Shown piece by piece: positions 8,015 through 46,015 of a stretch of DNA of 48,591 nucleotides; within the stretch, counting starts at the first letter, position 1; each line of letters opens with the position of its first letter. The translations under genes were made by a program, and so were the position numbers. The stretch covers positions 1 to 48,591 of the forward strand of contig JAOUMU010000009.1 of assembly GCA_029881335.1 (NCBI GenBank). The letters run 5' to 3'. The notes beneath the pieces are model-generated. The model searched no databases. It was not told the origin of the DNA and saw only the letters and a program-made list of their open reading frames with translations. The stretch is from Nitrospinota bacterium. GTDB taxonomy: Bacteria > Nitrospinota_A > UBA7883.

Positions 8015-8561
8015 CTGAAATGATAATAGATTCGAAGACGGAGAATCTGGCGCCTTCCCGCCAACTGTCCGGGGCCAGGCCGGCTTTCCTGGCCAGGAAG
8101 GTCAAGGTCGTGGGGAGGTCCCATTTGTTTTCCGTGGCCACTTGTGGCAGAAACAGCGCCCTGGCGCCTCTCTTTTCCAGGATGATCCCATGTTTCCCTA
8201 TCTCTATCATGTCGTAAGATTCCACTGGTGATGGAGGAGTGAGCAGGGAGATCTCAATTTCCAGGTCTTGCGTCTCCTCACGGTTCACCGGCGCAAATCT
8301 GGAATCATCGAAGGCGGCGTTGGCTGCGGATCTTTGGACCCCCATCAGCAGGCTCATATCCGGCTGGATATAGCCTATGCAGCCCCTCAATAAACCTGCG
8401 GAGTGAAGCGAGACGAATACGCCCGCTTTGCTCTCCAGCGCGGGAGAAGTTGTTTCTGGCAATGGAGGCGCCTCTTCTCCCCTGGCTCTGGACTCAATCA
8501 CTTCCCTGGCGAGCTTTAAAAGAGTTCGTTTCTCTTCATCAGAAAGATTCATCTCACTCAT
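8001..8561 (-). CDS. amrA: AMMECR1-domain protein (AmmeMemoRadiSam protein A type)
   Basis: A 186-residue protein made almost wholly of an AMMECR1 domain. The invariant LRGCIGYI motif lies at about residue 58, with FDDSRFAPV and LEIEISLLTPP after it. The biochemical role of this family is not settled; in many bacteria it is encoded with a Memo-like protein and a radical SAM enzyme, but neither partner is adjacent here. ATG 8561 has GGGAGG close upstream; ATG 8552 is an alternative start with 12-base spacing. Convergent with the gene at 7433. Confidence 0.85.
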   Translation of the reverse strand: MSEMNLSDEEKRTLLKLAREVIESRARGEEAPPLPETTSPALESKAGVFVSLHSAGLLRGCIGYIQPDMSLLMGVQRSAANAAFDDSRFAPVNREETQDLEIEISLLTPPSPVESYDMIEIGKHGIILEKRGARALFLPQVATENKWDLPTTLTFLARKAGLAPDSWREGARFSVFESIIISEKDL

Positions 8562-27288: not shown

Positions 27289-27329
27289 ACAAAGAATCGG
27301 TGGAATCCCGCCGAAGTATGGAGTTTTTA

Positions 27330-31215: not shown

Positions 31216-31488
31216 CTATTGCCCCTCCGTCGGCGCTAAAAGCTTTTCCGTCAGGAAATAGTCCATGCTCTCATCCACGTGCTGGGCCAGATCATCCGCC
31301 GACACGTCCTTGTAAGTTTCTGTCATATAACCTATGATAGCTTCCTTCTCCTCCCCTTCGATGGCGTGGCGCCATATTTCCGCCGCAGTGTCGTTTAGCG
31401 TGTAATACTCCCCGCTGGAAAGGTTCAGCAGAACGATTCCCGTTTTCAGATTTTTCCAGGTAATATCCTCCGGGGCCTGGTATTTCAT
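31216..31488 (-). CDS. PqqD-like RiPP recognition element (lasso B1 type)
   Basis: A 90-residue stand-alone PqqD-family protein. Seen: the three-strand region ITWKNLKTGIVLLNLSSGEY followed by YTLNDTAAEIWRHA, then the helical part with the TETYKDVSADDLAQHV segment. Such domains bind the leader of a precursor peptide and present it to the modifying enzymes and peptidase. The YxxPxI motif in the precursor at 45798 is the kind of sequence B1 proteins bind in lasso systems. It overlaps the B2 gene by 4 bases, the usual B1-B2 partnership. Confidence 0.9.
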   Translation of the reverse strand: MKYQAPEDITWKNLKTGIVLLNLSSGEYYTLNDTAAEIWRHAIEGEEKEAIIGYMTETYKDVSADDLAQHVDESMDYFLTEKLLAPTEGQ

Positions 31489-31985
31489 TGGTCGATCTCC
31501 CTTTTGATTAGTTTTTCCCGGTTAACGGGGTCGTTGTCGGGATCCGCCCAAAAGCGGATCGCCGCCTCCTTCTCTCCCAGATAAGCTGTGTAGATACGTC
31601 CTGTCTCTTCGGTTTCCCGAAACAGTTCGCCCTCCAGGGTCATCCAGCAATGGGCCATGGATCCAGTCGGGCCATCCCATCTGTATCCAAAGTTCAGCGC
31701 CACTGGCACACCCCGCGTGCGCAGAACGCAGGCCGTGGCGAATGATCGGTAAAAGCATATGCGCCGTTTCCATACAACAACAAGCCGGGTAATGAATCCC
31801 ACCAGCTTTGCGATTCTCTCCGCCGTGGGACGATCAACGACAGCCTTCAGGGCAATCTCCGGCATTGGTGGCGCCCCATTCCTATCGAAAGCGCGAAACC
31901 TGGCCGCCACCATAATGGCCGCCAGCGCCTCTCTTATGATGATTATCTTCTCCCGGAGGGTCAATCCACCGTCATCCGTTGTCAT
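31485..31985 (-). CDS. Lasso B2-type transglutaminase-like leader peptidase
   Basis: A 166-residue protein of the transglutaminase-like family (PF13471) that in lasso pathways cuts the leader from the precursor. Seen: catalytic Cys77 in RICFYRSFATACVLRTRGVPV and His112 in MAHCWMTLEGE, with acidic residues just after as the likely third member. The N-terminal 60 residues are helical. It sits between PqqD (4-nt overlap) and the ABC exporter (14-nt overlap). No asparagine-synthetase-like cyclase is nearby, so the peptidase probably serves a non-lasso peptide. Confidence 0.88.
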   Translation of the reverse strand: MTTDDGGLTLREKIIIIREALAAIMVAARFRAFDRNGAPPMPEIALKAVVDRPTAERIAKLVGFITRLVVVWKRRICFYRSFATACVLRTRGVPVALNFGYRWDGPTGSMAHCWMTLEGELFRETEETGRIYTAYLGEKEAAIRFWADPDNDPVNREKLIKREIDQ

Positions 31986-33795
31986 AGTTTTCCCGCTTCC
32001 CGAAATGTACCAGCCGTCCGTTTTCCATCCTGGCCTCGAAATCGGCGATATCCCGTATCATTTTATCATGCGTGGCCACCACGATTGTCCTTCCCTTTTT
32101 CAGGTTCAGTAATGTCTGGCGGATGGCCATCCTGCTCTCCTGGTCCAGTTGCGATGTCGGCTCGTCGATAAGCATCATCCCTGGATCGTGAAGGGTGGCC
32201 CTGGCGATAGTCAGGCGCTGCCGTTCTCCGCCGGAAAGCATATCACCTCTGTTGCCCACTTCGGTATCCAGCCCCGATGGAAGATATGAGCCTTCACCAC
32301 TCCACAGACTGGCCCTGGTGAGCGCCTCGATCATCTGGGATTCGGTGGCGTCCGGCCTGGCGTACAGCAGGTTTTCCCGGATGGCGCCGTTTATCAGCAG
32401 AGGCTCCTGGGTCACTATACCCAGGCTTTTCCGCCAGTGGATTCCATCCAGATGTTTGATATCCTCCCCGTCGATCCGCACCGCTCCCTCCCGGCACACG
32501 TCGAACTTGGCCAGCAGCGCCAGCATTGTAGTCTTGCCGGAGCCTGAAGGGCCATACACAGCCAGCATGGCCCCGGCAGGGATACTAAAGGAGATATCAG
32601 TCAGGATGTCTGTGGCGTCCACTCCATAGCTGACCTTTTCCAGCGTCACGCTCTCAAGTGGGCGGCCGACCTGCTTCTCTCCTTCGGGAAAGGGTTTTTT
32701 CTCATGGTCCAGAAACCGGAACACACGCAGAGCGCACGCCGACGACGACTGATACGATACGTAGAGGGTAGCCAGCGCTTCCAGAGGATTGGTCACCATC
32801 GGTAAAAGCAGGCTCAATTTTATCAGGTCCCCGCTGGTGATGGTCCCCTCCACCAGCACAGCCCGCCCACCGATTATAAGCAGCGCGGAAGTGGCGACGA
32901 TGAAGAGGATGTTCACCACCTGGGGCGCCATGGCGTCCATCAGCATAACCTTCACCATCAGCTTCCTGTTGGCGTCGGTTTCCCTGTCGAACTTCTTGCG
33001 CTCCATGTCCTCACGTGAAAGGGCGCGGGCCAGGATCACCGTGGAGAGGTATTCGGTGAGATGTCCCTGCACAAGGGCCACCTTCTCCATCATCCGACCC
33101 GTCAGCGAATGTATGCGGACTCCTACAATGTGAATGATGGCGCCGCCAGGCAGGAGTATGGCCAGCGCCATTAATGTAAGCTCAGGTGAGATCGACGCCA
33201 TCAGAAACATAGCCACCGCCAGGCGCATCGGCTGCATGAACACCCGATCCGCCGCGTCGATAAAAAGGTAATTGAGCTGGTTCACGTCCTGGATAAAAAG
33301 AGAAGCCACCTCGCCGGGGCGGTTGATCCTGGAAAAGGACAGATTCAGCAATGTCAACCGGGAGAATAGAGCATTTCTGATGGTGAAAAGTATCTGCTGG
33401 TTGACGCTGGCGATGATATACAGCTTCACCACCCGTATCAACGCCATCATGACGCCCAGGAGGAACAGCGCCGCCACCGAGGCCACCAGCGTTTCGTAAT
33501 GGGTGGCCCGGGTCAGCGCGCCAGCCACCGCCTGGTCCAGAAACACCGCCACCTTTCCGGAGGGGATGGCATTGGTCGAAGATGGAGAGGTGATATCCAG
33601 ACGCAGAATCTTGTTTATGAACTCCGCGCCGATCCACACAGAGACGGCCTGGATGGCGATAACCATCACGGAAATGACCCATGTGACAATTATGGCCCCC
33701 ACGTGCGGGATCAGGTATCCCCACGTCCGCAACAACACAAAAGCGACGTTGCCCAGGCCTCCCCGGCTTACTCCACGCATAGCCTCCTTCTCCAT
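31972..33795 (-). CDS. ABC exporter, fused membrane and ATPase domains (lasso D-like)
   Basis: A 607-residue half-transporter. Six membrane segments fall between residues 20 and 330, followed by an ATPase domain with Walker A GPSGSGKTTML, signature LSGGERQRLTIARA and Walker B MMLIDEPTSQLD. It has no N-terminal C39 peptidase, in line with a separate B2 peptidase. It would export the finished peptide across the inner membrane as a homodimer. The start at 33795 is three bases after the MacB-like stop; Met6, with GGAGG close before it, is also possible. Confidence 0.9.
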   Translation of the reverse strand: MEKEAMRGVSRGGLGNVAFVLLRTWGYLIPHVGAIIVTWVISVMVIAIQAVSVWIGAEFINKILRLDITSPSSTNAIPSGKVAVFLDQAVAGALTRATHYETLVASVAALFLLGVMMALIRVVKLYIIASVNQQILFTIRNALFSRLTLLNLSFSRINRPGEVASLFIQDVNQLNYLFIDAADRVFMQPMRLAVAMFLMASISPELTLMALAILLPGGAIIHIVGVRIHSLTGRMMEKVALVQGHLTEYLSTVILARALSREDMERKKFDRETDANRKLMVKVMLMDAMAPQVVNILFIVATSALLIIGGRAVLVEGTITSGDLIKLSLLLPMVTNPLEALATLYVSYQSSSACALRVFRFLDHEKKPFPEGEKQVGRPLESVTLEKVSYGVDATDILTDISFSIPAGAMLAVYGPSGSGKTTMLALLAKFDVCREGAVRIDGEDIKHLDGIHWRKSLGIVTQEPLLINGAIRENLLYARPDATESQMIEALTRASLWSGEGSYLPSGLDTEVGNRGDMLSGGERQRLTIARATLHDPGMMLIDEPTSQLDQESRMAIRQTLLNLKKGRTIVVATHDKMIRDIADFEARMENGRLVHFGKRENYDNG

Positions 33796-33798
33796 CGC

Positions 33799-35079
33799 TT
33801 ATTCGGCCCGGAGAGCGGCCAGCACATCCAGCCGCCGGGCCCGCATGGCGGGTATGGCCCCTGCCAGCGCCCCGCAAATGACGCACACCGCCAGAGGCGC
33901 CACCACACCTCCCATGGTGATCACAGGAGTAATATTGGAGGCCTCAGGTATGCGCGTAGCCAGCGCCTGTATTATCAGCGGCGCTCCAGCCACCGCCAGG
34001 AATAAACCCACCAGCCCGCCGATAAGCGATAGCGCCACGCTTTCCATCAGGACGATCAACGCCAGGTCGGAAGGCTCCGCCCCCACCGCCACCCGTATGG
34101 CAAATTCCCTGGAGCGGCGGGTGACGTTGGCCAGCATCACATTCAGCACACCAATGGAGGCGATAAGGATACTGAAGAGCGACTGGGCGGACCCGGCCAG
34201 CATGATGTTGGAGACTATCTCTTTTCTTTTGCGCACGGCGAACCTTGAGGAGGTGAGCTGATACGCTCCCGGCGCCCTCACCTCATCGAGAGCCCGTCGA
34301 ACGCTCTCCACCACCGCTTCCATTTCCTCGGGGGATCTCCAGGAAACGATGATGGCCCCGATATCGTCACCGCCGCCCCACAGCAACCTGGCCCAGCGGT
34401 ATGGGATCGCCACCCTCTCGCGCAACGGCTCGTCGGCCCCGGGTGGGTCCGGAATGATCCCCACCACCTGGCATGGATAAGCGCCCACCGCCACCCGCGG
34501 CAATGGCTCGGCGGCGGCATGGAGTCTTTCGGCCATCGACCTGGTGAGCAAGCACTCCATCCTGTCTCCGGCCAATCCTTCCTGGGTGAATCCGCTTCCC
34601 ATATATTGTGTGTAAGCCGTCTCCTTCATCATGGGCTCGTCGATGCCGTCCACATGGGCCACGGTGGCTATATCGTGAAGGCTGATCCGGCTACGGTGGT
34701 AGAACATGGGGGCGATGTAACTCGCTTTTTTCGCGTGTTCCCTCACATATTCCAGGTCCTGGATGTTGAAGTGAACCAAAGGCCTTTTTTGAAGCAGCTT
34801 ATCACCAAGGCCAGGCGCAGGATACACGTCCATGCGGGAGCCCATGAGCGTGTCCAGGTCCATCCACAGATTACGCAGCGCCCCCTCCCCAAGGAACATG
34901 ATAGCCGCCAAACCAAAAGAGCCGATGGCCATAGTGGCCAGCACCAGCGCCTGCTGCCAACGGAACGCCCACATGCTCTGCACGATTATCATACCCATGC
35001 ATACGGCCCTGGACATACGGCTCGTCTCTCCCAGGCCATGCCGCGCTGCTCTATCGGCGCCCACACCCATCTTTGTCAT
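33799..35079 (-). CDS. MacB/FtsX-type ABC permease
   Basis: A 426-residue permease without its own ATPase domain. One membrane segment lies near residues 40-62, a large periplasmic domain of about 230 residues follows, then three C-terminal segments (about 295-320, 345-370, 385-410) with the FtsX-type stretch RRSREFAIRVAVGAEPSDLALIVLMES. In the MacA-MacB-TolC design this protein works by mechanotransmission to push periplasmic substrates out. It overlaps the ATPase gene by 4 bases. Its partners, adaptor and channel, are in the same operon. Confidence 0.88.
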   Translation of the reverse strand: MTKMGVGADRAARHGLGETSRMSRAVCMGMIIVQSMWAFRWQQALVLATMAIGSFGLAAIMFLGEGALRNLWMDLDTLMGSRMDVYPAPGLGDKLLQKRPLVHFNIQDLEYVREHAKKASYIAPMFYHRSRISLHDIATVAHVDGIDEPMMKETAYTQYMGSGFTQEGLAGDRMECLLTRSMAERLHAAAEPLPRVAVGAYPCQVVGIIPDPPGADEPLRERVAIPYRWARLLWGGGDDIGAIIVSWRSPEEMEAVVESVRRALDEVRAPGAYQLTSSRFAVRKRKEIVSNIMLAGSAQSLFSILIASIGVLNVMLANVTRRSREFAIRVAVGAEPSDLALIVLMESVALSLIGGLVGLFLAVAGAPLIIQALATRIPEASNITPVITMGGVVAPLAVCVICGALAGAIPAMRARRLDVLAALRAE

Positions 35080-35753
35080 CCTTCCACCATGGTCCCGTCG
35101 ACAATATGAGCGATCCGATCCGCCAGCAGCGCAAGGTCTGGCTGGTGCGTCACCAGCACCAGGGCGGTAGAGAGCCCCACCATGCCGAAAAGAAGGTCCG
35201 ATATGATCCGGCCGTTGACCGAATCCAGGCTCCCTGTAGGTTCATCAGCCAGCAGGATGGAAGGATTTGCCACCAACGCCCTGGCTATAGCCACCCGCAT
35301 GCTCTCCCCGCCGGAAAGCTGACTGGGGTGGTGACCAAGCCTGTGACCCATCCCCACCGCTTCCAGCGCTTGTGTAGCCAGTTTTTTCTGGCGGTGCGGC
35401 CACACACCGATGTGCATCAGCGGCGCCTGGACGTTCTGCAACGCGCTCAGGCCGCCTATCAGCTTGGCGTCCTGGAAAATGAATCCGAACATCCGGCGCA
35501 TGCCGATCGCCTTACGCCGGTCCTGGCCCACCCGCTCACCGGCCACCCGGACATGCCCCACGGTGGCGGGAGTCAGAAGCCCCATCACATGCATGAGTGT
35601 TGACTTTCCAGATCCGCTGGGACCGGTGACCGCGATAGACTCGCCAGCGTTTACCGTCAATGAAACGCCTTTGAGTATCTCCACTGTCCTATCCCCACTG
35701 CCGACGGACTTATGGATGTCCACCAGTTCCACGAGAGGGGCTTGACCGGTCAT
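35076..35753 (-). CDS. MacB/LolD-type ABC transporter ATPase
   Basis: A 225-residue ATPase subunit. Seen: Walker A TGPSGSGKSTLMHVMGLL, Q loop FGFIFQDAKLI, signature QLSGGESMRVAIARALV, Walker B ILLADEPTGSLDS and switch His in VTHQPDLA. It energises the FtsX-type permease encoded next (4-nt overlap) and follows the adaptor gene with another 4-nt overlap. Confidence 0.93.
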   Translation of the reverse strand: MTGQAPLVELVDIHKSVGSGDRTVEILKGVSLTVNAGESIAVTGPSGSGKSTLMHVMGLLTPATVGHVRVAGERVGQDRRKAIGMRRMFGFIFQDAKLIGGLSALQNVQAPLMHIGVWPHRQKKLATQALEAVGMGHRLGHHPSQLSGGESMRVAIARALVANPSILLADEPTGSLDSVNGRIISDLLFGMVGLSTALVLVTHQPDLALLADRIAHIVDGTMVEG

Positions 35754-36670
35754 CGGCTCTCGTCCCGCCCCTCCTCTGCCGCCAGTTTAACAGACACCAC
35801 CATCCCCACCAGAAGCCCGCTGTCTGGTGAGACGATCCGTACCGTCACCGGGAATTTGGGAAAATCCCGCAGGCCTGGGCTGGCCATGGGTGGCTCGATA
35901 CCGGTCACTACTCCTTCCAGGTTTGTCTCTCCATAGAAATCGGGATATATCCGGGCTTTCTGCCCCACTTTCACATATGGAATCTGGTGCTGCCACAAAT
36001 CCACCCGCACAGCAAGGGTGGTCTCGTCACGCACCTCCAGGGCCATCATGGGGGACGTCAGGCTTTCCGCGTCTTTGGTCACGGAACGGGCAACTCCGTC
36101 GAATGGCGCCACCACATCCAGGGCACCGAGCTGCTTATTCAGCAGACCCAGGCTTTCGTCGATCAACTTCATCGCTTCCCGCAACGCCCCTTTCTCCGCT
36201 CCGCTATTCTCCTTGCGCGCCTTTAGGGTTCGCAATCTTTCGGATACTTTGCGCTTCTCTTCTTTCAGGCGCGTCGCTGTTGGTCCGTCCTGCAGTTCAG
36301 GTTTGCCCAGTTGCTCCATGATCCTGGCCATGTTCCTCTCTTCCTCGGCCAGTTCCTGGTCCAGGGCGGCCAGGTTTTCCATCTCCCGCAGATACCATAT
36401 TTTGCTTTGGCGCAGCCCGACCACCTTGGAGACCAGGTCCACGTTGGCCAGCCGCAAAAGCCGGTCCCCTTTTCTGACTCGGGAGCCCTCGGTCACGTAT
36501 AGCTCCAGCGCAATGTCGCCCGGCTTTAGGCGGTATGCGAACAAACGCGCCGGCTCCACCACACCCCTGCCTTCTATCGCTTGTCCGGCAAAGGCGATGG
36601 AAGAGCTATATGGTCCCGCCACCACCGCAAAAACCGCCACCAGCGCCGCTTTCAGGATATTGAATTTCAT
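35750..36670 (-). CDS. MacA/HlyD-like periplasmic adaptor protein
   Basis: A 306-residue protein. A signal peptide (residues 1-28, ending AFAGQA) is followed by a lipoyl/barrel-sandwich half (EGRGVVEPARL, LYVTEGSRVRKGDRLLRL), a long coiled-coil hairpin (about residues 85-180) and the second barrel half (LDVVAPFDGVARSV, LEVRDETTLAVRVDLWQHQI). It would link the MacB-like permease to the TolC-like channel across the periplasm. It is shorter than most adaptors (about 370 residues). It starts 33 bases after the nucleotidyltransferase gene. Confidence 0.88.
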   Translation of the reverse strand: MKFNILKAALVAVFAVVAGPYSSSIAFAGQAIEGRGVVEPARLFAYRLKPGDIALELYVTEGSRVRKGDRLLRLANVDLVSKVVGLRQSKIWYLREMENLAALDQELAEEERNMARIMEQLGKPELQDGPTATRLKEEKRKVSERLRTLKARKENSGAEKGALREAMKLIDESLGLLNKQLGALDVVAPFDGVARSVTKDAESLTSPMMALEVRDETTLAVRVDLWQHQIPYVKVGQKARIYPDFYGETNLEGVVTGIEPPMASPGLRDFPKFPVTVRIVSPDSGLLVGMVVSVKLAAEEGRDESR

Positions 36671-36703
36671 GATTTGCCTACCCTACATTATCAGATGATC
36701 CGG

Positions 36704-37957
36704 CTATGGCCGCATGGCAAAACGCTTGCCGGAAAAAAGAACGCCTTCAACAATCCGCGACAAGGGCCATATCAACAGCGCCGCCACCCATTGTATTACT
36801 TTTATCAAGAACCGGAAATCGAACCCAAACCCCCGGGCGTATCTGGCCGCCATCCAACGTGCCGCGTTAGAGCGGAGCGCTCCTGCGAATCCCGCCTTAT
36901 CACCAATCAGGAAGTAGAGAACAAGGTACACCATATACAACATTCCGTTTTTAAGGGGGGTTACATACTGCGGCCCCAGAGCGCGGTTGAACACCACTTC
37001 ATGGTTCATCATCACCAGCAAAAACCCCCGTCGCCCGCGTTCAATCTTCCCCAGGCAGGGGAAAGAGGGATCGATCCATGTCTGGATAAAAGCGGACATG
37101 TTCCCCGCCGTTCCGGAAAGCTCCAGCGCCTTTAGCTCCTCCACTATCCAAGGCATGTCCAAAGAGCCTTGGTCGTGCAGGGCCACCAGGTCCATCCACC
37201 ATATCAGCCGGGCGCACAGGTGATGTGTCAGCATGTGCAGCAGAAGGTATACGAAGTGAGCGGAGGGATCCGGAGACAACAGGCCTGCGCCGAACAGACG
37301 GTCATGGCGCCGGTGAAATAACTCCAGCATGGGATCGGACGGCGCCCCCTCCAGGCATGTGATCTCCAGCAAAAAGCTGTCGAAGTCCGCTTCTATCTTG
37401 CCGGGGTTTTGCAGACGCGACCAGAATCCGGAGCCGTCCATCAACCTGGCGGATTCCGCGGCGCCGATGGCCTCCAGCAGCAGCCAGGCTTCCTTTTGCG
37501 AAGGGATGAACAGATCTATGTCCCCATACTGTCGAGCGGACTGGCCGCCATACGCCTGGCCCACAAGCGTTGGCCCCTTTAGCGCCACCACATGGAGGCC
37601 TCCGGATTGGGCCGCTTGTTCTATCTTCGCGCATACCTTAATGGCCCGCTCATGGCGGATCATTCCGGAGAAATAAATATCACTTGCTTGGTCGGTCACT
37701 TTACCAGGATCATCACCCATCTCCAGCCCCACCGCTCCCGCCACCGCCCCCAGCCCATGAAGCCCGGCATAATGCCACAGCTTTTCCGGATCCGCCGCTT
37801 TTCCAAGGCCCCATGGTTTATTCCGGCGCCAGCATTTCATCAGGTCGAAAAGCGCCATCCCATCTTCTTCGGAGAGGGCGCCAAACGCTGAGGCCTTCTT
37901 TTGCAGTGGGCGTATGGTCCACATCGTCTCCACATCGGGTGACCGCGTATCGTTCAC
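36704..37957 (-). CDS. NTP_transf_5-type nucleotidyltransferase-family protein
   Basis: A 417-residue protein. Seen: VVALKGPTLVGQAYGG and ARQYGDIDLFIP, the Lys-Gly and Asp-x-Asp motifs of the nucleotidyltransferase family PF14907, often found in lasso and related RiPP clusters beside HPrK-like kinases and B2 peptidases. The C-terminal 80 residues hold two or three hydrophobic stretches that may attach it to the membrane. The chosen start is GTG 37957, which forms a GTGA overlap with the TolC-like stop; ATG 38014 is also open. It might nucleotidylate the peptide or a carrier; no activity can be claimed. Confidence 0.72.
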   Translation of the reverse strand: MNDTRSPDVETMWTIRPLQKKASAFGALSEEDGMALFDLMKCWRRNKPWGLGKAADPEKLWHYAGLHGLGAVAGAVGLEMGDDPGKVTDQASDIYFSGMIRHERAIKVCAKIEQAAQSGGLHVVALKGPTLVGQAYGGQSARQYGDIDLFIPSQKEAWLLLEAIGAAESARLMDGSGFWSRLQNPGKIEADFDSFLLEITCLEGAPSDPMLELFHRRHDRLFGAGLLSPDPSAHFVYLLLHMLTHHLCARLIWWMDLVALHDQGSLDMPWIVEELKALELSGTAGNMSAFIQTWIDPSFPCLGKIERGRRGFLLVMMNHEVVFNRALGPQYVTPLKNGMLYMVYLVLYFLIGDKAGFAGALRSNAARWMAARYARGFGFDFRFLIKVIQWVAALLIWPLSRIVEGVLFSGKRFAMRP

Positions 37958-39369: not shown

Positions 39370-40523
39370 TCGGCGCATAGGATGTCGAACGACCTTCTGG
39401 CTATTCCCTCCACTTTTTTCGCAAAGTCGCACCCATTGGCGTGATTAAGTGAAAGCCCCATCCCGGGAGTGGCCGCCAGGCATCCCCCTTGGCAAGCGGG
39501 GCCAGCATGGCATCCGGCGCAGGAGGAGGCCAGCGCATCCGCCACCAGCCGAAAATCAAAGAGCCGTTTGCGGTTCAACACTCCGGATGTGTCTCCCATG
39601 ATCCAATTGTCACTGCCGATGAATTTTTCGCAGGGTAACAGCCTTCCCCGAACGTCAATGGCCATCACGCTGATCCCCGCTCCGCAAGAGCCGTGGGAGC
39701 GCTCGAAAAAGAGAGTCGTCCAGATATCGAAAAGAGATTTGGGCCCCCGGTACTCCGACAGGAAGAACGGGACGGAAAGCTTCCGGGCCTGCTCCATGGC
39801 CAGCTTTTCAAAAGACTCCAGATAACGGATTCTCCTGGCTTCCCATCGCTCCATTTCCTCCAGGCCGGATGCGAACGGTGGCTCCGCCACCAGGTCCAAA
39901 AAAACCTTCTGCTCCCTCTCCCGCCAGAACCGGGCCACTTCGTACAGATCGGAGCTGTCCGATATCACGCTTTGCACACTCACCGATGGTGGATCTGGCA
40001 AGGTGGCGGTTATTTGCCTATACTTCTCCCAGTTGGCCATGGCGGCGGCGAAGGCGCCATCACCGGCAATATTCACTCGATTGGCGTCGTTGATTTTGGC
40101 GGGGCCGTCGATACTGAATGTGAGAAAGACCCGGCGCTTGGCCAAGGCCTCCATTTTCTTCTCGTCCAGCAGGACGCCGTTGGTGGTCACTTCGCATGTG
40201 ACCTGGACCTGGGCCTTGTGGGCCCGCTCATACAGATGGTCCACAGCATCGATGAAACGGCCGAAATGCAGGAAAGTCTCGCCACAGCCAAAGGAAAATC
40301 CTTTTTTACTTCCTGGCTGGGCGTCGTCGATGGCCAAAGACACAAAGTCGCGCCACACCTGAGGCGTCATCGCCGCTGGCGGGTCACCCATGGCGCCGTG
40401 CCCCGTAACGCAATATCGGCACCGCAGGTTACAATCCTGGGTGAATGCCACATGCCAGGAGCTGATCCCTTCCAGCATTCTTCCGGTCATGGCGCCCGGC
40501 TGGGGCTGGCTGCTGGTTTTCAT
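39366..40523 (-). CDS. Radical SAM/SPASM enzyme 3 of the RiPP operon
   Basis: A 385-residue enzyme. Radical SAM cluster cysteines 31, 35 and 38 lie in DCNLRCRYCVTGHG. FSFGCGETFLHF takes the place of the usual GGEP motif: the glycine-glutamate pair is kept as CGE. The C-terminal SPASM part has CGAGISVMAIDVRGRLLPCEKF, then SSCAGCHAGPACQGGC and CDFAKK. Enzymes with this plan install thioether or carbon-carbon cross-links in peptides. The start at 40523 gives an ATGA overlap with the GT9 gene; the open frame upstream to 40667 is not homologous. Confidence 0.88.
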   Translation of the reverse strand: MKTSSQPQPGAMTGRMLEGISSWHVAFTQDCNLRCRYCVTGHGAMGDPPAAMTPQVWRDFVSLAIDDAQPGSKKGFSFGCGETFLHFGRFIDAVDHLYERAHKAQVQVTCEVTTNGVLLDEKKMEALAKRRVFLTFSIDGPAKINDANRVNIAGDGAFAAAMANWEKYRQITATLPDPPSVSVQSVISDSSDLYEVARFWREREQKVFLDLVAEPPFASGLEEMERWEARRIRYLESFEKLAMEQARKLSVPFFLSEYRGPKSLFDIWTTLFFERSHGSCGAGISVMAIDVRGRLLPCEKFIGSDNWIMGDTSGVLNRKRLFDFRLVADALASSCAGCHAGPACQGGCLAATPGMGLSLNHANGCDFAKKVEGIARRSFDILCAE

Positions 40524-41467
40524 GGTGATCCCCCCATAGCGTGGACACGCGTCCTGGCTTCGATCAGGTTTAACACCGCATCCACCACCACCCCAGGATC
40601 GATGGACTCCATGCACACATGCCGTTGGCATTTCTTTCTTCTGGGAGTGTCCGCGCATGATGGGCATGCGCCGGAGGATATGTTATAGCCGTTGTCGTGA
40701 CCGAACACCTCCGGATTGGACGCTCCGAACAAAGTCACGGCCGGTGTCCCCACCGCTGCCGCCAGGTGCTGGGGGAATGAATCGACAGAGAGGACGCAAT
40801 CCACTCGCTTCATGATTTCCGCCAGTGCCCGCAATCCCGGCGCCGGACATATGACATGAGCAGGGTCAACACCCTCCGCGCAATCCTGTGCCGATATGAG
40901 CCGAACCTTCCCCTCAAGCAACCGAGCCACTTCCCTGTATTTGTCCGCGGGGTACTGCTTTTCCACAAAATTAGACGATGTGTTTATGTAAAGAACAGGC
41001 CTGGAGTCATCCTCGCTGAACAATCCCCGGGCGAATTGGATATCCTCCGGCGTGGTGTGTATCTCCATAGCCGCATCCTCTCCGGAAAGCTCCATACCGG
41101 CCATCTGGGCAACCTGGGCGATAATTGGCCGCCCCACGGGATTTGGCGCCATCACTGGCTCCACCCTCACGCTAAAGGGGTTCTCCCTCTCATGGCTGCG
41201 AACGTCGATATATGGCGCGAACAGATCCGCGTCCGGCTCTTCCAGAGCCCACATGAAAAGGTCATCCCCGTGGCATGGCGCCAGGTGATCCAGGTGGGGA
41301 TTGTGGTCGTATATCTGGACGGCGTTTTTCTGGACCGCCACAGTGATAGCTCCGTACTTTCCGGAGCGGCGCAGCGCGCGCAGAAACGGGGTTAGCAAAA
41401 GACAGTCGCCCAAGCCGCCGGAAGCGACAAACACCAGACGTCGGCCGTCACCGGTGAGCTTTATCAT
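40520..41467 (-). CDS. GT9-family (heptosyltransferase-like) glycosyltransferase
   Basis: A 315-residue GT-B-fold enzyme. Seen: N-terminal VFVASGGLGDCLLLTPFLRALR, VLSVDSFPQHLAAAVGTPAVTLFG in the donor-binding C-terminal domain, and a CPSC, CQRHVCM cysteine-rich end. The family adds heptose or related sugars in LPS assembly. Its place inside the RiPP operon, with 4-nt overlaps on both sides, suggests glycosylation of the peptide or of a carrier, but this is inference. No signal peptide; cytoplasmic. Confidence 0.85.
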   Translation of the reverse strand: MIKLTGDGRRLVFVASGGLGDCLLLTPFLRALRRSGKYGAITVAVQKNAVQIYDHNPHLDHLAPCHGDDLFMWALEEPDADLFAPYIDVRSHERENPFSVRVEPVMAPNPVGRPIIAQVAQMAGMELSGEDAAMEIHTTPEDIQFARGLFSEDDSRPVLYINTSSNFVEKQYPADKYREVARLLEGKVRLISAQDCAEGVDPAHVICPAPGLRALAEIMKRVDCVLSVDSFPQHLAAAVGTPAVTLFGASNPEVFGHDNGYNISSGACPSCADTPRRKKCQRHVCMESIDPGVVVDAVLNLIEARTRVHAMGGSP

Positions 41468-42909
41468 CGCCCGCCACTACCCAATCCAGCGGCTAGCCGC
41501 TCGGCCAGACACACACCATGGCACACTCCGGTGTAGAACATTATACACTCCCCACACTCGGGCAGGGAATTGGTCGACTGAAGTGACCGGATGAATTCAC
41601 CAGATACTTTCCCCAGTGCGGCTATGGAGCCGGAGTTTTTTATATCGCCTGTGGCTTTGGCTACGCCATTGCATGGGTAGACGCTCAGGTCCGGATTAAT
41701 GGTCAGGTTCTGGGTGTAGCCAGAGTTGGCCACGGTGCAGCAACTGTATATGGCCCCGGAGCGAACCGCTCGTCGGAGCGTCTCCTTCGACACCATACAC
41801 AGGGGAAACGGCTTGCTCTGATGCAGCCCAAGCCCCGCCTGGGCCACATCCTTCATGAAGCGTGTGAACAACGTGTCGAAGCTGACCTGGTCCACGGTGG
41901 AGAAATCGAAATGGCTGTTATCTCCATAGGCGTTCCGGAACGCGAAGCCGTAGTTGAGCCTTTTGGCGCCAGCTTGGCCAGCCGCGTCTATCACACGGCC
42001 CCACTCCTCCGGGCCGCTCTCCCTGGTGAGCGTGTATCGGAAAACGAGGGGTACACCGGAGGCTGCGGCCTGGGTTACGTTGTCCATGAACAGGCGGCGC
42101 CTGGGCTCCCTGGAGGATAGCGATTCCTGGTCGTAATGGGCGATCAGCTCCCGGATATATTTTGGCGTGACCAGACGGCGGACTTTTTCCGGGTATAGGC
42201 AGTTGCTAGTGAGCCACACCGAAATCCCCTTATCCTTCATCCCTTCCAGCAGATACTCAAGCCGTGGATATATGGTCGGTTCCCCACCGGAGAGCTGGAC
42301 CAGGTTCACTCCGTTTTCCTTCATCCATGCCAGGGCGAAATCCAGATCCTCCGGGCTCATGGATCCGGGAAACGATTTTTTGTCCCACCCCTTGGAGTAG
42401 CAATAGGAGCAGTCTATGTTGCATCCGTATGTGGGGGCGATAAGAGCCTGCCGCGCTCCCCTCTGGGCTCCGCCATGTATGGCCATGGCCCTGCGCAAGG
42501 TTTCGGCTCCTTCTGCCTCCCCGATACGATCCAGGGCCGCCGCCACATCAAGCGCCGCTCCTGGTAGACGCAGCCACCGTTTTATCATCTCCTCTGTTTT
42601 GTTTCCCGCCCATTCTTTCAAGAAGAGATCGATACCGGAAATCAGACACCTCCATTGCCTGCCTTCAGGAGAAGAGAGGGAATCCAACGTTGGCTCCATG
42701 CGTATATATGGCTCCAGCCCCAGCCATGGGAGCTTGTGGAGTATGCCATCCAGCGCGGCGGACCATGTGTCAGGATCCCCCGACGCCACCAGCCGGGCCA
42801 GTATGGAGAGCGCCTCCGGCTCCTGGGCCTCCGCCAGGATCGCCACTGAGGATCGTTGGGCTTCGGGACGGCTATCCTCCGCGAAGCTGATCCCGATTTC
42901 AAGAGTCAT
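41464..42909 (-). CDS. Radical SAM/SPASM enzyme 2 with N-terminal helical domain
   Basis: A 481-residue enzyme with an N-terminal 150-residue helical region rich in Ala, Leu and Glu (HEAT/ARM-like repeats by look), then a radical SAM domain with cysteines 163, 167 and 170 in GCNIDCSYCYSKGW and QLSGGEPTIYPRL. The SPASM part has YSCCTVANSGY, NPDLSVYPCNGV and CGECIMFYTGVCHGVC. The N-terminal extension is unusual and may dock onto the peptide, the exporter or the HPrK-like partner, whose gene overlaps by 4 bases. Confidence 0.87.
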   Translation of the reverse strand: MTLEIGISFAEDSRPEAQRSSVAILAEAQEPEALSILARLVASGDPDTWSAALDGILHKLPWLGLEPYIRMEPTLDSLSSPEGRQWRCLISGIDLFLKEWAGNKTEEMIKRWLRLPGAALDVAAALDRIGEAEGAETLRRAMAIHGGAQRGARQALIAPTYGCNIDCSYCYSKGWDKKSFPGSMSPEDLDFALAWMKENGVNLVQLSGGEPTIYPRLEYLLEGMKDKGISVWLTSNCLYPEKVRRLVTPKYIRELIAHYDQESLSSREPRRRLFMDNVTQAAASGVPLVFRYTLTRESGPEEWGRVIDAAGQAGAKRLNYGFAFRNAYGDNSHFDFSTVDQVSFDTLFTRFMKDVAQAGLGLHQSKPFPLCMVSKETLRRAVRSGAIYSCCTVANSGYTQNLTINPDLSVYPCNGVAKATGDIKNSGSIAALGKVSGEFIRSLQSTNSLPECGECIMFYTGVCHGVCLAERLAAGLGSGGR

Positions 42910-44006
42910 GGCTTCGCCTCTAAAAGCATTTTCTCAAAAACCTCCGGCAAGGAGTTGATATGGGGCGCCAGGGTGGCCCGGACCACCACCGCCTGGGCCA
43001 GCAGTGCGATGGCTATTTCCAGATGAAATTCCCTACGGCTGACGTTTGATGGATCTATAAGCAAACCCATGATCTGCTCCAGGGCTTCCGCCTCTTCAAG
43101 AATGTCGAACCTGTGCTCCGGGGGTCTATGATCGGTCTTCTCCAGGATCACCACCATCGTCGGGGTGGTATCGGCCATTGGCTGAGCTTCCATGAAACTC
43201 TCTAGGGCGGCGTGGCCACGGCTTTTCCATGTGGCGCCGTTGCCGGCCAAACCAGCCTCCAGTTCCTCCAGCGTGGCGGGAGCCTGGCCAACAAAGTTTG
43301 GTGGAGTTAATAATCCGGCGCAGAGAACCCCATGGCCGGATGGGTCCATACCGAGGGCGCACAAGTCGTCTGCCGCGTATTTGGCTCCGGCGCGCAACAT
43401 GGAAAGACAGGCGGTGGTTTTTCCCGCTCCGCTCTCGCCGCCAATCATCACACTAGCTCCTTTCCAGCGAAACATGCCGGCATGCAACAGCACCCTGCCT
43501 GCGTCTCTGGCGAATGCTCCCGCCGCGATGTCGGCCACCAGTTCCCAATCGAACTCATCACCATCCGCCTTGACGCGCAGCCGATCCGCTTCCCGTGGGT
43601 GGATGGCCTCATCCAGACCATGGGCCACCACCACCCGGCCGCAACTTCCGTCCTCCGGTGTGAAGTCCACCATCATATTCGGCGGCCACCAGAGGTATTC
43701 GCGGCGGTCTGTGGTGGAAATATGGATAAAATCCCCCGCTCCCGTCCGCACTCGGCGAGAAGGTTTGGCCAGGATATGATCGAAATATTCCCGCGACCGC
43801 CGTGCGTGGATGATCTCCATGGTTCTGGCGTTGGAGCCATTCCCCACCATTGGGTAATACCTGAACTTGTCGCGAAGGGCAACGATGGCGCTCTCAACAT
43901 TGGAGCTGACACTTAGCGAGCCGAAAGGGAACGAAAAGTCTGCTGAAAACTCAGCGGCCTGATCGCCGCCCAAGTTCGACCGGTCCGGTCTTATCGAGTT
44001 GGCCAT
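42906..44006 (-). CDS. HPr-kinase/phosphorylase-like protein of the RiPP operon
   Basis: A 366-residue protein with a P-loop MIGGESGAGKTTACL (about residues 187-201) and KYAADDLCALG after it, as in HPrK-like kinases of lasso and other RiPP clusters. Some of these phosphorylate a serine of the precursor. The first 150 residues are not recognised. ATG 44006 with AAGGA ten bases before it is chosen; this overlaps the upstream exported-protein gene by 56 bases, longer than other overlaps here. A TTG at 44048 is also open. Confidence 0.78.
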   Translation of the reverse strand: MANSIRPDRSNLGGDQAAEFSADFSFPFGSLSVSSNVESAIVALRDKFRYYPMVGNGSNARTMEIIHARRSREYFDHILAKPSRRVRTGAGDFIHISTTDRREYLWWPPNMMVDFTPEDGSCGRVVVAHGLDEAIHPREADRLRVKADGDEFDWELVADIAAGAFARDAGRVLLHAGMFRWKGASVMIGGESGAGKTTACLSMLRAGAKYAADDLCALGMDPSGHGVLCAGLLTPPNFVGQAPATLEELEAGLAGNGATWKSRGHAALESFMEAQPMADTTPTMVVILEKTDHRPPEHRFDILEEAEALEQIMGLLIDPSNVSRREFHLEIAIALLAQAVVVRATLAPHINSLPEVFEKMLLEAKP

Positions 44007-44652
44007 TTGAGATATTGTCCTTGTTGTCTTCTGATTCCTGGTCGACAATCAACCGCAGATCGTCGACATACCTGCGTTCCAGTTCGGCGGATGTTTTAAG
44101 ATTCATGGGCATGGATACTCTGGGTCGGGATTTGCCGTCCAGGAGTGTCATCACTGCGGCGATCTCTTGCAGTGGGGTGTAGAGAAGGCCGATCATCCTG
44201 TCGCGGAAATCACCAAAAACGGCCTCCGTTTCCGGATTCAGGACCCTGTGGGCTTTGTATGACCTGTCATTCTCAATTCCCCTGGCCGAGGCCACCTGTT
44301 CCAGGATATCCACCTGCAGCCTTAGCCAGTAAATTATCTTTCGTGGGCATTCGGGGACCCTGGAGGAGAGATCGCCGGTGGAGGCAAGTATGGCCATTTG
44401 CGGCTCCTCCGTCTGCGCCGTGGCCACTCCCGCATCAGCCAGGAGCCTCATGTTTGCGCTATCCAAGTCGAAAAGAAGATTGGCTATCTCATCACGGGCG
44501 CCCGATGAGAGGAGGCATTGGCCTCTCAATATGGAGTCATACAAGGTCCGGGATCCGGGCCGGACAATGCGTTGATCATCCGCAAAAGCCGAGGCGCCCA
44601 AGATAGCCGCCAGGAGCATAGCCATGGCGGCGCCATACTTCCCCGGCCTCAT
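43951..44652 (-). CDS. Exported protein of unknown function in the RiPP operon
   Basis: A 233-residue protein with a clear signal peptide (MRPGKYGAAMAMLLAAILGA, then SAFA) and a mostly helical mature part. No family is recognised. Two cysteines (in RGQCLLS and PECPRK) could form a disulfide. ATG 44652 forms an ATGA overlap with the radical SAM 1 stop and gives the signal peptide at the true N-terminus; the open frame upstream to 44775 is the wrong start. It might be an immunity, chaperone or maturation factor in the periplasm, but nothing in the sequence decides. Confidence 0.7.
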   Translation of the reverse strand: MRPGKYGAAMAMLLAAILGASAFADDQRIVRPGSRTLYDSILRGQCLLSSGARDEIANLLFDLDSANMRLLADAGVATAQTEEPQMAILASTGDLSSRVPECPRKIIYWLRLQVDILEQVASARGIENDRSYKAHRVLNPETEAVFGDFRDRMIGLLYTPLQEIAAVMTLLDGKSRPRVSMPMNLKTSAELERRYVDDLRLIVDQESEDNKDNISNGQLDKTGPVELGRRSGR

Positions 44653-45659
44653 GACACCGGCGCCTTTATCCTGGAGGCGATATTCTTGGCTCCGGATTTC
44701 TCCCAGTTCCGTATGGTCCTTCCCACGCAACCGCCGCAGCATTGGCCCCGCTTCATGTATTTGCAATCGATGCATTCATCCATGCTGCCCATCTGGCGTA
44801 AGGGGGCCATGGTCTTTTCATATGCTTCCACCATGCTGCTCCTGTCCGGGAAAGCGTCCAGCGTGGTGTTGGCCACCTTGGTGAGAGGAAAGCAGGGCCA
44901 CACGGAAAGATCCGCTCCCACATCTATGATCGGCTCGCATATGGATATGAACCCGGTGGTGCAGGTGATCAGCGCGGCATAATCCGCTTCGTCGAACATG
45001 CACAAGGGAAATCCACAATCAAAGGCGGAGAGAATATCGCGGCGTTCCAACTGGCGCATTTGGGTCACCAGCCTCTTGCCCATCGCATTCAGGGAGGTGT
45101 CGGCCGGATAGGCGTTCTCCGCCCCCACCACAGGGTGGGCCAGACCCAGGCGGATTTCCTTTTTCAGGGCAAATTTCTCGATCAGGTCCCCGGCGAAAAG
45201 CAGATCGAAATCATCGTTGTAGATATTGAAGCTCAGGCGGGCTCTGCGGCCAACCACAGCCAGGCTTTTCTCCTGCAGGACCGTTTCCCGCTCTTTCTGA
45301 ATGCTCCGCTCGTTTACATTGATCAGAAAATCCACGCTGGCGGTTTTCTCTTCCTTGAAAAATGATCTGACGGCCGAGGACCATATTCCGTTGGAGAAAA
45401 CCGATACATGGAACCCCTCCGCCAGGCCGGTGGATACCAGCTTGATAAATTCGGGATGCGCAGTAGGTTCGCCACCCAGAAGTTTCAGTTTTTTCTCGCC
45501 ACTTCGTTTTAAAAACTCAAGACACCGCCGGAAGTTTTCCATGGAGATATAGTGGCCATTGTCGTTATCCGGTTCCCCGTTTTTGGGGAGGGACATTTTG
45601 AGGGAAGCAAAACAATATGGGCATGAACGGTTACACACATCGCAGATGATAATATTCAT
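44649..45659 (-). CDS. Radical SAM/SPASM enzyme 1 of the RiPP operon
   Basis: A 336-residue enzyme that starts directly in the cluster-binding strand: cysteines 9, 13 and 16 in VCNRSCPYCFA. LKLLGGEPTAHPEF is the SAM-binding GGEP motif. The C-terminal SPASM region has CGFPLC, GADLSVWPCFPL and CIDCKYMKRGQCCGGC, enough for auxiliary [4Fe-4S] clusters. It is the first enzyme gene after the precursor, so it is the best candidate for the first modification. It overlaps the exported-protein gene by 4 bases. Confidence 0.9.
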   Translation of the reverse strand: MNIIICDVCNRSCPYCFASLKMSLPKNGEPDNDNGHYISMENFRRCLEFLKRSGEKKLKLLGGEPTAHPEFIKLVSTGLAEGFHVSVFSNGIWSSAVRSFFKEEKTASVDFLINVNERSIQKERETVLQEKSLAVVGRRARLSFNIYNDDFDLLFAGDLIEKFALKKEIRLGLAHPVVGAENAYPADTSLNAMGKRLVTQMRQLERRDILSAFDCGFPLCMFDEADYAALITCTTGFISICEPIIDVGADLSVWPCFPLTKVANTTLDAFPDRSSMVEAYEKTMAPLRQMGSMDECIDCKYMKRGQCCGGCVGRTIRNWEKSGAKNIASRIKAPVS

Positions 45660-45725
45660 ATTTCACACAACCTGCAGGATGGCCGCTGCGTCCGGGAGAA
45701 CATTGTGAAGAGAGGGGCGACACCG

Positions 45726-45758
45726 GCGGAGCCGAGCGCAAAAGCGCCCGGCCCTCGC
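45726..45758 (-). terminator. Strong hairpin between precursor and radical SAM 1 (attenuator or stabiliser)
   Basis: On the minus strand GGGCCGGGCGC, loop TTTT, GCGCTCGGCTC form 11 pairs (two G-U), then after one bulged A three more (GCG/CGC). It begins 39 bases after the precursor stop. No T tract follows, so it is more likely a partial stop or a 3' stabiliser that raises the ratio of precursor to enzyme mRNA. Confidence 0.7.
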
Positions 45759-45797
45759 CAATTTCATATAACCCTAAATCAGGATAAACTGCTGCTT

Positions 45798-45950
45798 TTA
45801 GTGGTAGTAGGTGCTACCCACGGTGCGGGCGACATAGTTGCTGCAGCCGGAGCTACCAGAGCCCGACGCCACAACCGCCACCGGTTTAGTCTTCTTGATT
45901 ACGGGTTTGGAGTAGGCCTTTTTCTCCTCGGTCTTTCCCAGATTGTCCAT
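45798..45950 (-). CDS. RiPP precursor peptide (50 residues)
   Basis: A small gene at the head of the operon. ATG 45950 is preceded by AAGGGG at five-base spacing, and a consensus-like promoter lies just upstream. The N-terminal half is charged (MDNLGKTEEKKA) and contains Y13-S-K-P16-V-I18, matching the YxxPxL/I leader motif that PqqD-like B1 proteins bind in lasso systems. A hydrophobic PVAVVA stretch (23-28) leads to a Ser/Gly linker and the likely core GCSNYVARTVGSTYYH (residues 35-50), with a single Cys36, three Tyr, two Thr and a C-terminal His. No stop-to-start coupling with the next gene; a hairpin follows. The cleavage site and modifications are not known. Confidence 0.82.
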   Translation of the reverse strand: MDNLGKTEEKKAYSKPVIKKTKPVAVVASGSGSSGCSNYVARTVGSTYYH

Positions 45951-45986: not shown

Positions 45987-46015
45987 AATCTAATACAGGC
46001 TCACATGTTTGTCAA
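45987..46015 (-). promoter_or_regulatory. Sigma70-type promoter of the RiPP operon
   Basis: Minus strand: perfect -35 TTGACA (46015-46010), 17-nt spacer, -10 TAGATT (45992-45987; four of six). The predicted transcript would start about 30 bases before the precursor ATG. Confidence 0.65.

Follow-up and report, generated by a model that had tools for sequence, protein, structure and literature searches.

The window analysed here is a stretch of 48,591 nucleotides from a little-studied bacterium of the Nitrospinota (assembly GCA_029881335.1, contig JAOUMU010000009.1). ORF analysis of the window places fifteen co-directional genes on the minus strand, running from 45950 to 31216 and led by a gene for a 50-aa peptide. 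An earlier note, made from the sequence alone, had described this run of mostly overlap-coupled genes with a small peptide first, and the layout was borne out. The features are as follows, from the upstream end.

45987..46015, minus strand: promoter-like site TTGACA-17-TAGATT, 36 bp ahead of the precursor gene
45798..45950, minus strand: precursor peptide, 50 aa (60% identical same-genus homologue; analogues in loci L035, L030 and L079)
44649..45659, minus strand: rS1, radical SAM protein, proposed tyrosine-tail maturase (PF04055 over cut-off)
43951..44652, minus strand: probable exported protein, 233 aa, signal peptide by eye (52% identical in the same genus)
42906..44006, minus strand: HPrK-like kinase, start uncertain (Hpr_kinase_C, E 1.7e-4)
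41464..42909, minus strand: rS2, radical SAM protein, paralogue of rS1 (PF04055 over cut-off)
40520..41467, minus strand: GT9-family glycosyltransferase (PF01075, 70.5 against 22 bits)
39366..40523, minus strand: rS3, radical SAM/SPASM protein of the PapB/CteB/QhpD neighbourhood (PF04055 over cut-off)
37954..39369, minus strand: TolC-like outer-membrane efflux protein (PF02321, 49.8 against 22 bits)
36704..37957, minus strand: NTP_transf_5 protein, GTG start (PF14907, 71.2 against 31.2 bits)
35750..36670, minus strand: HlyD-type membrane fusion protein (PF13437 over cut-off)
35076..35753, minus strand: ABC ATPase of a MacB-like pair (PF00005 over cut-off)
33799..35079, minus strand: MacB/FtsX-type permease (PF02687 and PF12704 over cut-off)
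31972..33795, minus strand: ABC exporter, membrane plus ATPase (PF00664 and PF00005 over cut-off)
31485..31985, minus strand: B2 leader peptidase (PF13471 and NF033537 over cut-off)
31216..31488, minus strand: B1/PqqD-type RiPP recognition element (PF05402 over cut-off)

Using adjusted starts, nine of the 14 junctions are overlaps of exactly 4 bp, and the other five measure +138 (precursor to rS1), -56, +33, +3 and -14 bp. Five starts (exported protein, kinase, rS3, efflux protein and NTP_transf_5 protein) were moved downstream from those of the longest ORFs, a placement favoured by homologues, by signal peptides or by the overlap. The domains that passed their Pfam cut-offs were three Radical_SAM, GT9, OEP, NTP_transf_5, HlyD_3, two ABC_tran, FtsX/MacB_PCD, ABC_membrane, Transglut_core3 (B2) and PqqD. 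Between the window and the same-genus genome G021, pN/pS was 0.19-0.50 at pS 0.48-0.64 across 14 genes, the efflux gene being left out because it is split between contigs in that genome. The operon is not a product of chance, and its genes are under purifying selection. The promoter-like site is the sole match in the window, with 0 matches in 100 shuffles, and identical hexamers and spacing precede the same-genus precursor gene. A hairpin conserved in the gap from precursor to rS1 was considered and dropped, given z-scores of -1.6 in the window and -0.7 in the relative, and folds that differ.

The window precursor has a leader with YSKPVI, a Ser/Gly-rich core with one Cys, and the C-terminal end STYYH; its same-genus homologue keeps the leader and varies the core. 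A YxxP-type motif and a tyrosine-containing end were found in all five precursors (window, G021, L035, L030 and L079), with two to ten tail tyrosines each. The tail of the G020 precursor holds eight. The YxxPx(I/L) motif of the earlier note held in its YxxP part but not in its last position, which is I, V or F. No Asp or Glu follows the motif in the window, L035 and L030 precursors, while both G021 and L079 have one or the other. PMC10885120 places Thr at position -2 of lasso leaders; in the G021 precursor, Thr is absent from the stretch that runs from the motif to SRTSG, close to the end of the peptide. The features that look more unusual are the tyrosine tail and the family to which rS1 belongs, neither of which the earlier note mentions.

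B2 scored 35.4 against 33 bits with NCBIfam NF033537 (lasso_biosyn_B2), keeps its Cys and His in an alignment of four loci, and is the sole PF13471 match in the window's genome (G000). B1 is the sole PqqD match there, and the NCBIfam lasso PqqD models fell under their cut-offs (42.7 against 70 and 32.2 against 80). Domain matches confirmed the B1, B2, HPrK-like kinase, NTP_transf_5 protein and ABC exporter named previously, the kinase below its Pfam cut-off (21.6 against 33.3) with the His-Lys-Asp-Asp (HKDD) residues kept in the alignment. The NTP_transf_5 protein keeps its DxD in four loci, and the efflux protein has a lipoprotein-like signal by eye. The earlier note was silent on the GT9 glycosyltransferase, which recurs in other rS1 loci, and on the exported protein without a known family, which had no Pfam or NCBIfam match and was not found in L030 or L035.

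A lasso cyclase was not found by PF00733 on the operon's contig (C52 of G000) or beside the clusters, and in G021, a genome 94% complete, Asn_synthase matches were only short and weak (best 4.0e-5), none full-length. The cyclase's absence, as claimed beforehand, is upheld in the clusters and the same-genus genome, and none lies just outside such loci, which had been named as counter-evidence; in one relative from the Acidobacteria, an ORF of this kind sits roughly 32 kb off on the same contig. Phosphorylated or glycosylated lasso clusters (paeninodin, pseudomycoidin), as described in PMC9266682, resemble the window in B1/B2, a kinase and a nucleotidyltransferase-annotated sugar enzyme. The window differs from them in having no cyclase, three radical SAM enzymes and a tyrosine tail in place of a C-terminal Ser, and its type in that three of the five precursors have no acceptor Asp/Glu. 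The proposal that B1 and other lasso-cluster parts are merged with radical SAM enzymes stands as architecture, but PqqD and YxxP are not lasso-specific; around 300 lasso-type discrete RREs adjoin radical SAM enzymes (PMC7470986) and W/Y/LxxP-like motifs occur across RiPP classes (PMC12710340). Less expected is the combination of B2, kinase, NTP_transf_5 and GT9 with three radical SAM enzymes.

All three enzymes previously called radical SAM/SPASM are radical SAM proteins, but SPASM was supported by a model only for rS3 (TIGR04085 40.8 against 27, over; Pfam SPASM 14.4, under its 21.5). In rS1 and rS2, Pfam SPASM was unmatched at E 0.1, NCBIfam models were covered to the best 25 matches listed for each, and the C-terminal cysteines are conserved. 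rS3 matched rSAM_PapB at 1.3e-36 (126.5 bits against a cut-off of 340), with the other listed maturases also below theirs, and its best PDB sequence match was 5wgg (1.8e-25), which we take to be CteB, a thioether former. Ranthipeptide CteB/PapB and QhpD resemble the window in rS3's nearest families and PDB sequence and in the Cys found in four of the five precursors, whereas the window type departs from them in an rS3 far under curated cut-offs and in one to three core Cys (three true-rS3 cassettes). The ranthipeptide/sactipeptide trait of a radical SAM enzyme with SPASM plus an RRE is present (rS3, B1). rS3 occurs with Cys in the window, G021 and L035, L030 is without both, and in Cys-rich L079 the sole candidate is a distant rS3-like protein. 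Few loci support the rS3-Cys link. Homologues of rS2 were found in G021, L030, L035, L079 and L080, and a scan of genome contigs with the single rS2 sequence returned no relative. Its model, with a helical N-terminal domain, was of low confidence (mean pLDDT 59) and was kept out of the fold search. The count of 0/298 for rS2 in a Gemmatimonadota sample had no positive control and is uninformative, and a G654 match to the rS2 profile turned out to be an rS1-type protein.

Scanning genome contigs with the rS1 alignment yielded 20 relatives, and the rS1 family has no curated model and spans several phyla. The AF2 model of rS1 (pLDDT 87) had the RiPP maturases SuiB (streptide synthase) as best and SkfB as also nearest predicted fold match by Foldseek, at 14-19% identity and TM-scores of 0.5-0.6 and with other substrates; unlike them, rS1 begins directly at the radical SAM domain, without an N-terminal RRE. 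With a threshold of seven or more Tyr within a 25-residue stretch, Tyr-dense ORFs lay near rS1 relatives in 14/23 loci and then 0/2 (L033, L081), or 14/25, and a later Bacteroidota draw gave 3/3. The nine of 23 under threshold were L034, L035, L038, L040, L048, L050, L051, L052 and L032, the first two belonging to the window's own type. Control loci elsewhere gave 0/42, in GC-richer genomes (0.60 vs 0.42); same-genome controls, added for that reason, gave 2/24, neither ORF being a repeat protein. In the later control set, 14 of 15 places were earlier control places with longer flanks.

Twin-arginine-like signals and long Tyr repeats were observed in rS1 loci of Bacteroidota, Ignavibacteria, Gemmatimonadetes and Aminicenantes, where the second enzyme is a radical SAM/SPASM protein whose closest matches are DynA, sulfatase maturases and DarE, with cyclophane formers next. 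The window and G021 cores, with three tyrosines each, are far below these repeat proteins. A Thiodictyon plasmid relative of rS1 sits in a YcaO/TfuA cluster without a Tyr-dense ORF. The recurrence of rS1 relatives beside Tyr-dense proteins points to an unrecognised tyrosine modification.

Gene order is kept in the same-genus genome, spread over two contigs. Most of the genes also occur in an Acidobacteriaceae MAG and in a same-family genome, both of which carry a YxxP peptide of their own. The loss of a conserved small peptide in homologous loci, which the earlier note had named as counter-evidence, was not what these relatives showed. The MAG's rS1 groups with the window's (support 98/99), excluding that of the same-family genome; because the same-family rS1 is left outside, the cassette has probably moved horizontally. 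L080 (G361) has rS2, NTP_transf_5, ABC exporter, MacB-type permease and ABC ATPase on a contig that breaks off, and no precursor was found. The open-access literature, a scope outside which most subscription journals fall, held no description of this architecture or of rS1 with Tyr-rich targets, and the words tyrosine and repeats are absent from PMC10352776 on Bacteroidales RiPPs.

Direct observations cover the genes, how they are conserved and ordered, the motif, the tails with their tyrosines and the missing cyclase. We infer the chemical steps, their order and the product's role, and consider it fairly probable that the operon makes a non-lasso RiPP. B1 would bind the YSKPVI leader and pass the bound peptide on to the enzymes that modify it; rS3 would form a thioether at a core cysteine, and rS1 and its paralogue rS2 would oxidatively modify the tail tyrosines, most likely by cross-linking. 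The HPrK-like kinase may phosphorylate a hydroxyl of the core or of the tail, and sugar may come from the NTP_transf_5 protein and GT9, kinase and PsmN-type sugar addition having lasso-cluster precedent (PMC9266682). B2, aided by B1, would then cut off the leader, and the ABC exporter plus the MacAB-TolC-like system would export the product, possibly a new peptide class. Against the tail-tyrosine reading, the window and G021 tyrosines are few, 11 rS1 loci fall under the Tyr threshold, and two same-genome controls pass it.

More tentatively, and with somewhat less than an even chance of being right, rS1 may represent an unrecognised radical SAM family acting on tyrosine tracts regardless of leader type (B1/YxxP, twin-arginine-like or NHLP-type). 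On that view the operon would stand for a new RiPP class in which a single peptide carries a cross-linked tyrosine tail, a thioether and a phospho-sugar, and the repeat proteins would be radical-cross-linked, glycosylated surface polymers. This offers a testable enzyme-substrate pair, a radical SAM family without a curated model and tyrosine tracts, in several phyla and with three leader types. If true, the tyrosine chemistry would be new to RiPP biosynthesis, the lasso leader-handling module could serve radical chemistry, and rS1 plus a Tyr tract would be a mining handle missed by searches on lasso cyclases or known maturases.

The DynA-like enzyme of the repeat loci could itself be the one acting on tyrosine, as in triceptides, and we regard as rather unlikely that rS1 is an accessory there and that rS2 or rS3 carries out the main chemistry in the window. 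The nearest relatives of the DynA-like enzyme, given above, favour this, as do the YSN/YSD repeats, which we take to look like triceptide motifs; triceptide radical SAM enzymes were reportedly found by Sugiyama in 2022 to act on motifs with Tyr or His. Window-type loci, however, have rS1 and tyrosine tails with no tblastn-detected relative of the DynA-like enzyme, and in L083 rS1 accompanies a Tyr-repeat precursor that carries an NHLP-type leader, with no second radical SAM enzyme seen on the short (4.65 kb) contig. Triceptide systems also differ from the window in helper genes, and the cyclophane models stayed below cut-off with rS3 (YhhB 64.3 against 445, GrrM/OscB 38.8 against 310) and were absent among the matches listed for rS1 and rS2.

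A redox cofactor made from C-terminal tyrosines would account for PqqD, radical SAM enzymes, a glycosyltransferase and a C-terminal tyrosine, all features of PQQ or mycofactocin systems. We consider it improbable, as the models fell far below cut-off among the matches listed (PQQ TIGR02109 with rS1, 18.8 against 381; mycofactocin TIGR03962, at most 38.1 against 265), two species of a single genus do not share the same core, and the peptides with their two to ten tail tyrosines come with two export systems. A lasso cluster with radical SAM tailoring and its cyclase encoded elsewhere is very improbable. In its favour, B1, B2, kinase and nucleotidyltransferase also occur in lasso clusters (PMC9266682), two long Asn_synthase matches lie elsewhere in G000, on contigs C85 and C102, and G024 has an Asn_synthase ORF about 32 kb off on the cluster's own contig. 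Against it, G021 holds the operon with only its short, weak matches, and the window, L035 and L030 precursors, which lack Asp/Glu beyond the motif, cannot close a lasso ring.

The SynChlorMet cassette resembles the window in combining PqqD-like, HPrK-like and two radical SAM proteins with a peptide; its models lie far under cut-off in the window, with ScmC at 15.1 against 125 and ScmF at 19.9 and 24.4 against 400.

The window is contig C52 of a draft genome of 3.09 Mb, and the operon's fifteen genes run on the minus strand from 45950 down to 31216. Their order is precursor, rS1, a probable exported protein, an HPrK-like kinase, rS2, GT9, rS3, an outer-membrane efflux protein, NTP_transf_5, HlyD, an ABC ATPase, a MacB-type permease, an ABC exporter, B2 (leader peptidase) and B1 (PqqD-type RRE), where rS1 to rS3 are the radical SAM proteins. 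With five gene starts set downstream of the longest-ORF start, 4-bp overlaps were found at 9 of the 14 junctions, bearing out the earlier note's description of a co-directional, mostly overlap-coupled operon led by a small peptide gene. A TTGACA-17-TAGATT site, the only one in the window, lies 36 bp upstream of the precursor and was also found at the locus of the same-genus genome G021. Two features were observed beside the operon:

26005-28541, plus strand, outside the operon: two radical SAM genes whose nearest models are AhbC/NirJ1 and AhbD, of the heme or heme d1 pathway
29421-31190, convergent with B1: protein of 589 aa containing a P-loop and weakly similar to PEPCK, all family matches being below cut-off

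In G021, the same gene order was read across two contigs, C136 (precursor through part of the efflux protein) and C354 (part of NTP_transf_5 through B1). Across 14 genes, amino-acid identity to the window was 0.52–0.83 and pN/pS 0.19–0.50, and the precursor kept its leader while its core varied, which is the behaviour of RiPP precursors. An Acidobacteriaceae locus (L035) carries B2, B1, precursor, kinase, rS2, rS3 and rS1, with the MacB-type permease, ABC ATPase, HlyD, NTP_transf_5 and efflux protein on the opposite strand. Between its rS2 and rS3, 52 residues encoded at 8200-8355 match the end of the window GT9, probably a gene remnant that shows an older gene order. The same-family locus L030 (genome G020) has rS1, a sub-threshold kinase, B2, B1, precursor, rS2, ABC exporter and NTP_transf_5, together with a B12-binding radical SAM protein. 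L079, from genome G103, holds rS1, rS2, two PqqD-like proteins, two additional radical SAM-like proteins, a Cys-rich precursor and a protein distantly similar to rS3, with no B2 found there by tblastn. The G103 genome (8.1 Mb) gave twelve PqqD-type matches, compared with one to five in five other genomes searched. A tree of rS1 proteins groups those of the window, G021 and the Acidobacteriaceae locus with support (98/99) and places G020 outside, a sign that the cassette has probably been transferred horizontally. The system is rare among the genomes surveyed: of 24 from the window's phylum, three have strong rS2 relatives at E < 1e-30 (the window's own genome G000, G021 and G020), and of 396 from the phylum of the Acidobacteria relative, three have relatives at E < 1e-25 (L035's genome G024, G103 and G361).

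The claimed absence of a lasso cyclase also held, as no Asn_synthase match was found on C52 and the whole G021 genome gave only short, weak ones. The single PF13471 match and single PqqD match in G000 both fall in the operon. The L035 contig also has, ~32 kb away from the cluster, an Asn_synthase-like ORF that may serve it. In three precursors (window, L035 and L030) the YxxP leader motif (YSKPVI in the window) is followed by no Asp/Glu, so a lasso ring could not close; some Asp/Glu follow the motif in the G021 and L079 precursors.

Among the modifying enzymes, an alignment of 21 rS1 sequences showed C9, C13, C16, C215, C220, C241, C256, C296, C299 and C307 to be invariant and C311 nearly so, a pattern that would be expected of a radical SAM core with auxiliary clusters. 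The fold nearest to the predicted rS1 model (pLDDT 87) was SuiB (TM 0.59–0.63), ahead of SkfB (0.51) and others; these matches favour a RiPP maturase fold and imply no particular reaction. Among the matches listed, rS1 stayed below the cut-off of every NCBIfam model, and the precursors of the window, L035 and L030 matched no model. rS2 is an rS1 paralogue with a helical N-terminus, and rS3 falls in the PapB/CteB/QhpD neighbourhood, far under curated cut-offs. In this small sample, Cys is present in the precursors of rS3-bearing cassettes and absent from that of L030, the sole cassette lacking rS3. The kinase retains His-Lys-Asp-Asp, with Asp-Glu in L035. According to PMC9266682, such kinases phosphorylate lasso precursors at a C-terminal Ser, and PsmN, an annotated nucleotidyltransferase, is required for hexose addition; by analogy, the window NTP_transf_5 may act like PsmN.

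All five precursors end in tyrosines, two to ten per tail (STYYH, GGYYH, NQYYY, SQWYYYYYYYWY and SYYTYYQTYYQTYYVYYS). Scanning genome contigs with the rS1 alignment gave 20 loci from several phyla, and many loci with rS1 relatives hold Tyr-dense ORFs, often with SRR(E/D)ALKR-like, twin-arginine-like starts, one of which falls short of the TIGR01409 cut-off (15.5 vs 16.7 bits). An ORF of 40–299 aa within 5 kb of rS1 was counted as Tyr-dense if any 25-residue stretch had 7 or more Tyr, a threshold picked after the sequences had been viewed. Such ORFs were found at 14 of 23 rS1 loci (the 20 plus L079, L083 and L032) and were absent at two additional weak relatives (L033 and L081), or 14 of 25 in total; peaks of at least 10 occurred at 8 of the 23. 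A later draw from the Bacteroidota relative's phylum found rS1 in 5 of 395 genomes, two already in the set. The three new loci all had Tyr-dense ORFs (peaks 11, 9 and 9). Two of them are near-copies, and the ORF of the third, at 323 aa, is over the length limit and was scored separately.

At other radical SAM loci, Tyr-dense ORFs numbered 0/41 with ~1.5-kb flanks (131 kb) and 0/15, even at 6 Tyr, with 5-kb flanks where contigs allowed (147 kb); 14 of the 15 places are among the 41, making 42 together. Because these sets came from GC-richer genomes, same-genome controls were added, using the best two listed other radical SAM places in each of 12 of the 17 genomes behind L037–L053; the five omitted (L040, L048, L050, L051, L052) have loci without a Tyr-dense ORF. 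These controls (195 kb; GC 0.44 vs 0.42 in rS1 loci) passed at 2/24 places at 7 Tyr, 1/24 at 8 and 5/24 at 6. The two passing ORFs were 56 aa without repeats and 192 aa, non-repetitive, with a maximum count of 9. The association thus stands, but a count of 7 Tyr is occasionally reached by chance in Bacteroidota-like DNA. By tblastn with the window protein, GT9 was found at 9 of 27 rS1 loci (26 distinct) and 0 of 15 controls, the nine including the L035 fragment and two near-copies.

PMC7470986 (RRE-Finder) describes ~300 lasso-type discrete RREs adjoining radical SAM enzymes, and PMC12710340 describes W/Y/LxxP-like recognition across several RiPP classes; the pairing of B1 with radical SAM enzymes is thus known in outline. 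In the open-access literature searched, neither the combination of B2, kinase, NTP_transf_5 and GT9 with three radical SAM proteins nor Tyr-repeat proteins paired with rS1 were found described. Where the earlier note had proposed a new peptide class, what stands is a real, conserved, non-lasso RiPP operon assembled from known part types, its chemistry a proposal from the genes; one enzyme family and a substrate signature look new.

Very Tyr-rich proteins, mostly with twin-arginine-like N-termini, were observed near rS1 relatives at ten loci:

L037, 13842-14192
L039, 8954-9412
L041, 5578-6021
L043, 6351-6949
L044, 7376-8035
L045, 12898-13500
L046, 4357-4632
L047, 6907-7634
L053, 8505-9230
L086, 4269-5144

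Most of these loci add a ~285-aa protein without a radical SAM motif and a DynA-like radical SAM/SPASM protein, and some have GT9; they are likely a separate peptide-modification system. In its C-terminal part the L086 protein is similar to the last section of a collagen-like adhesin model (60.8 vs 500 bits), a hint of a surface role. At L033, 13576-19653 is a Candidatus Thiodictyon plasmid cluster of PqqD, radical SAM, amidohydrolase, YcaO and TfuA-like genes. At L083, the ORF at 1554-1967, directly upstream of an rS1-type radical SAM gene with a C-terminal extension, has an NHLP-type leader (NF038399, 29.8 vs 40 bits) and, after it, a YPIF repeat.
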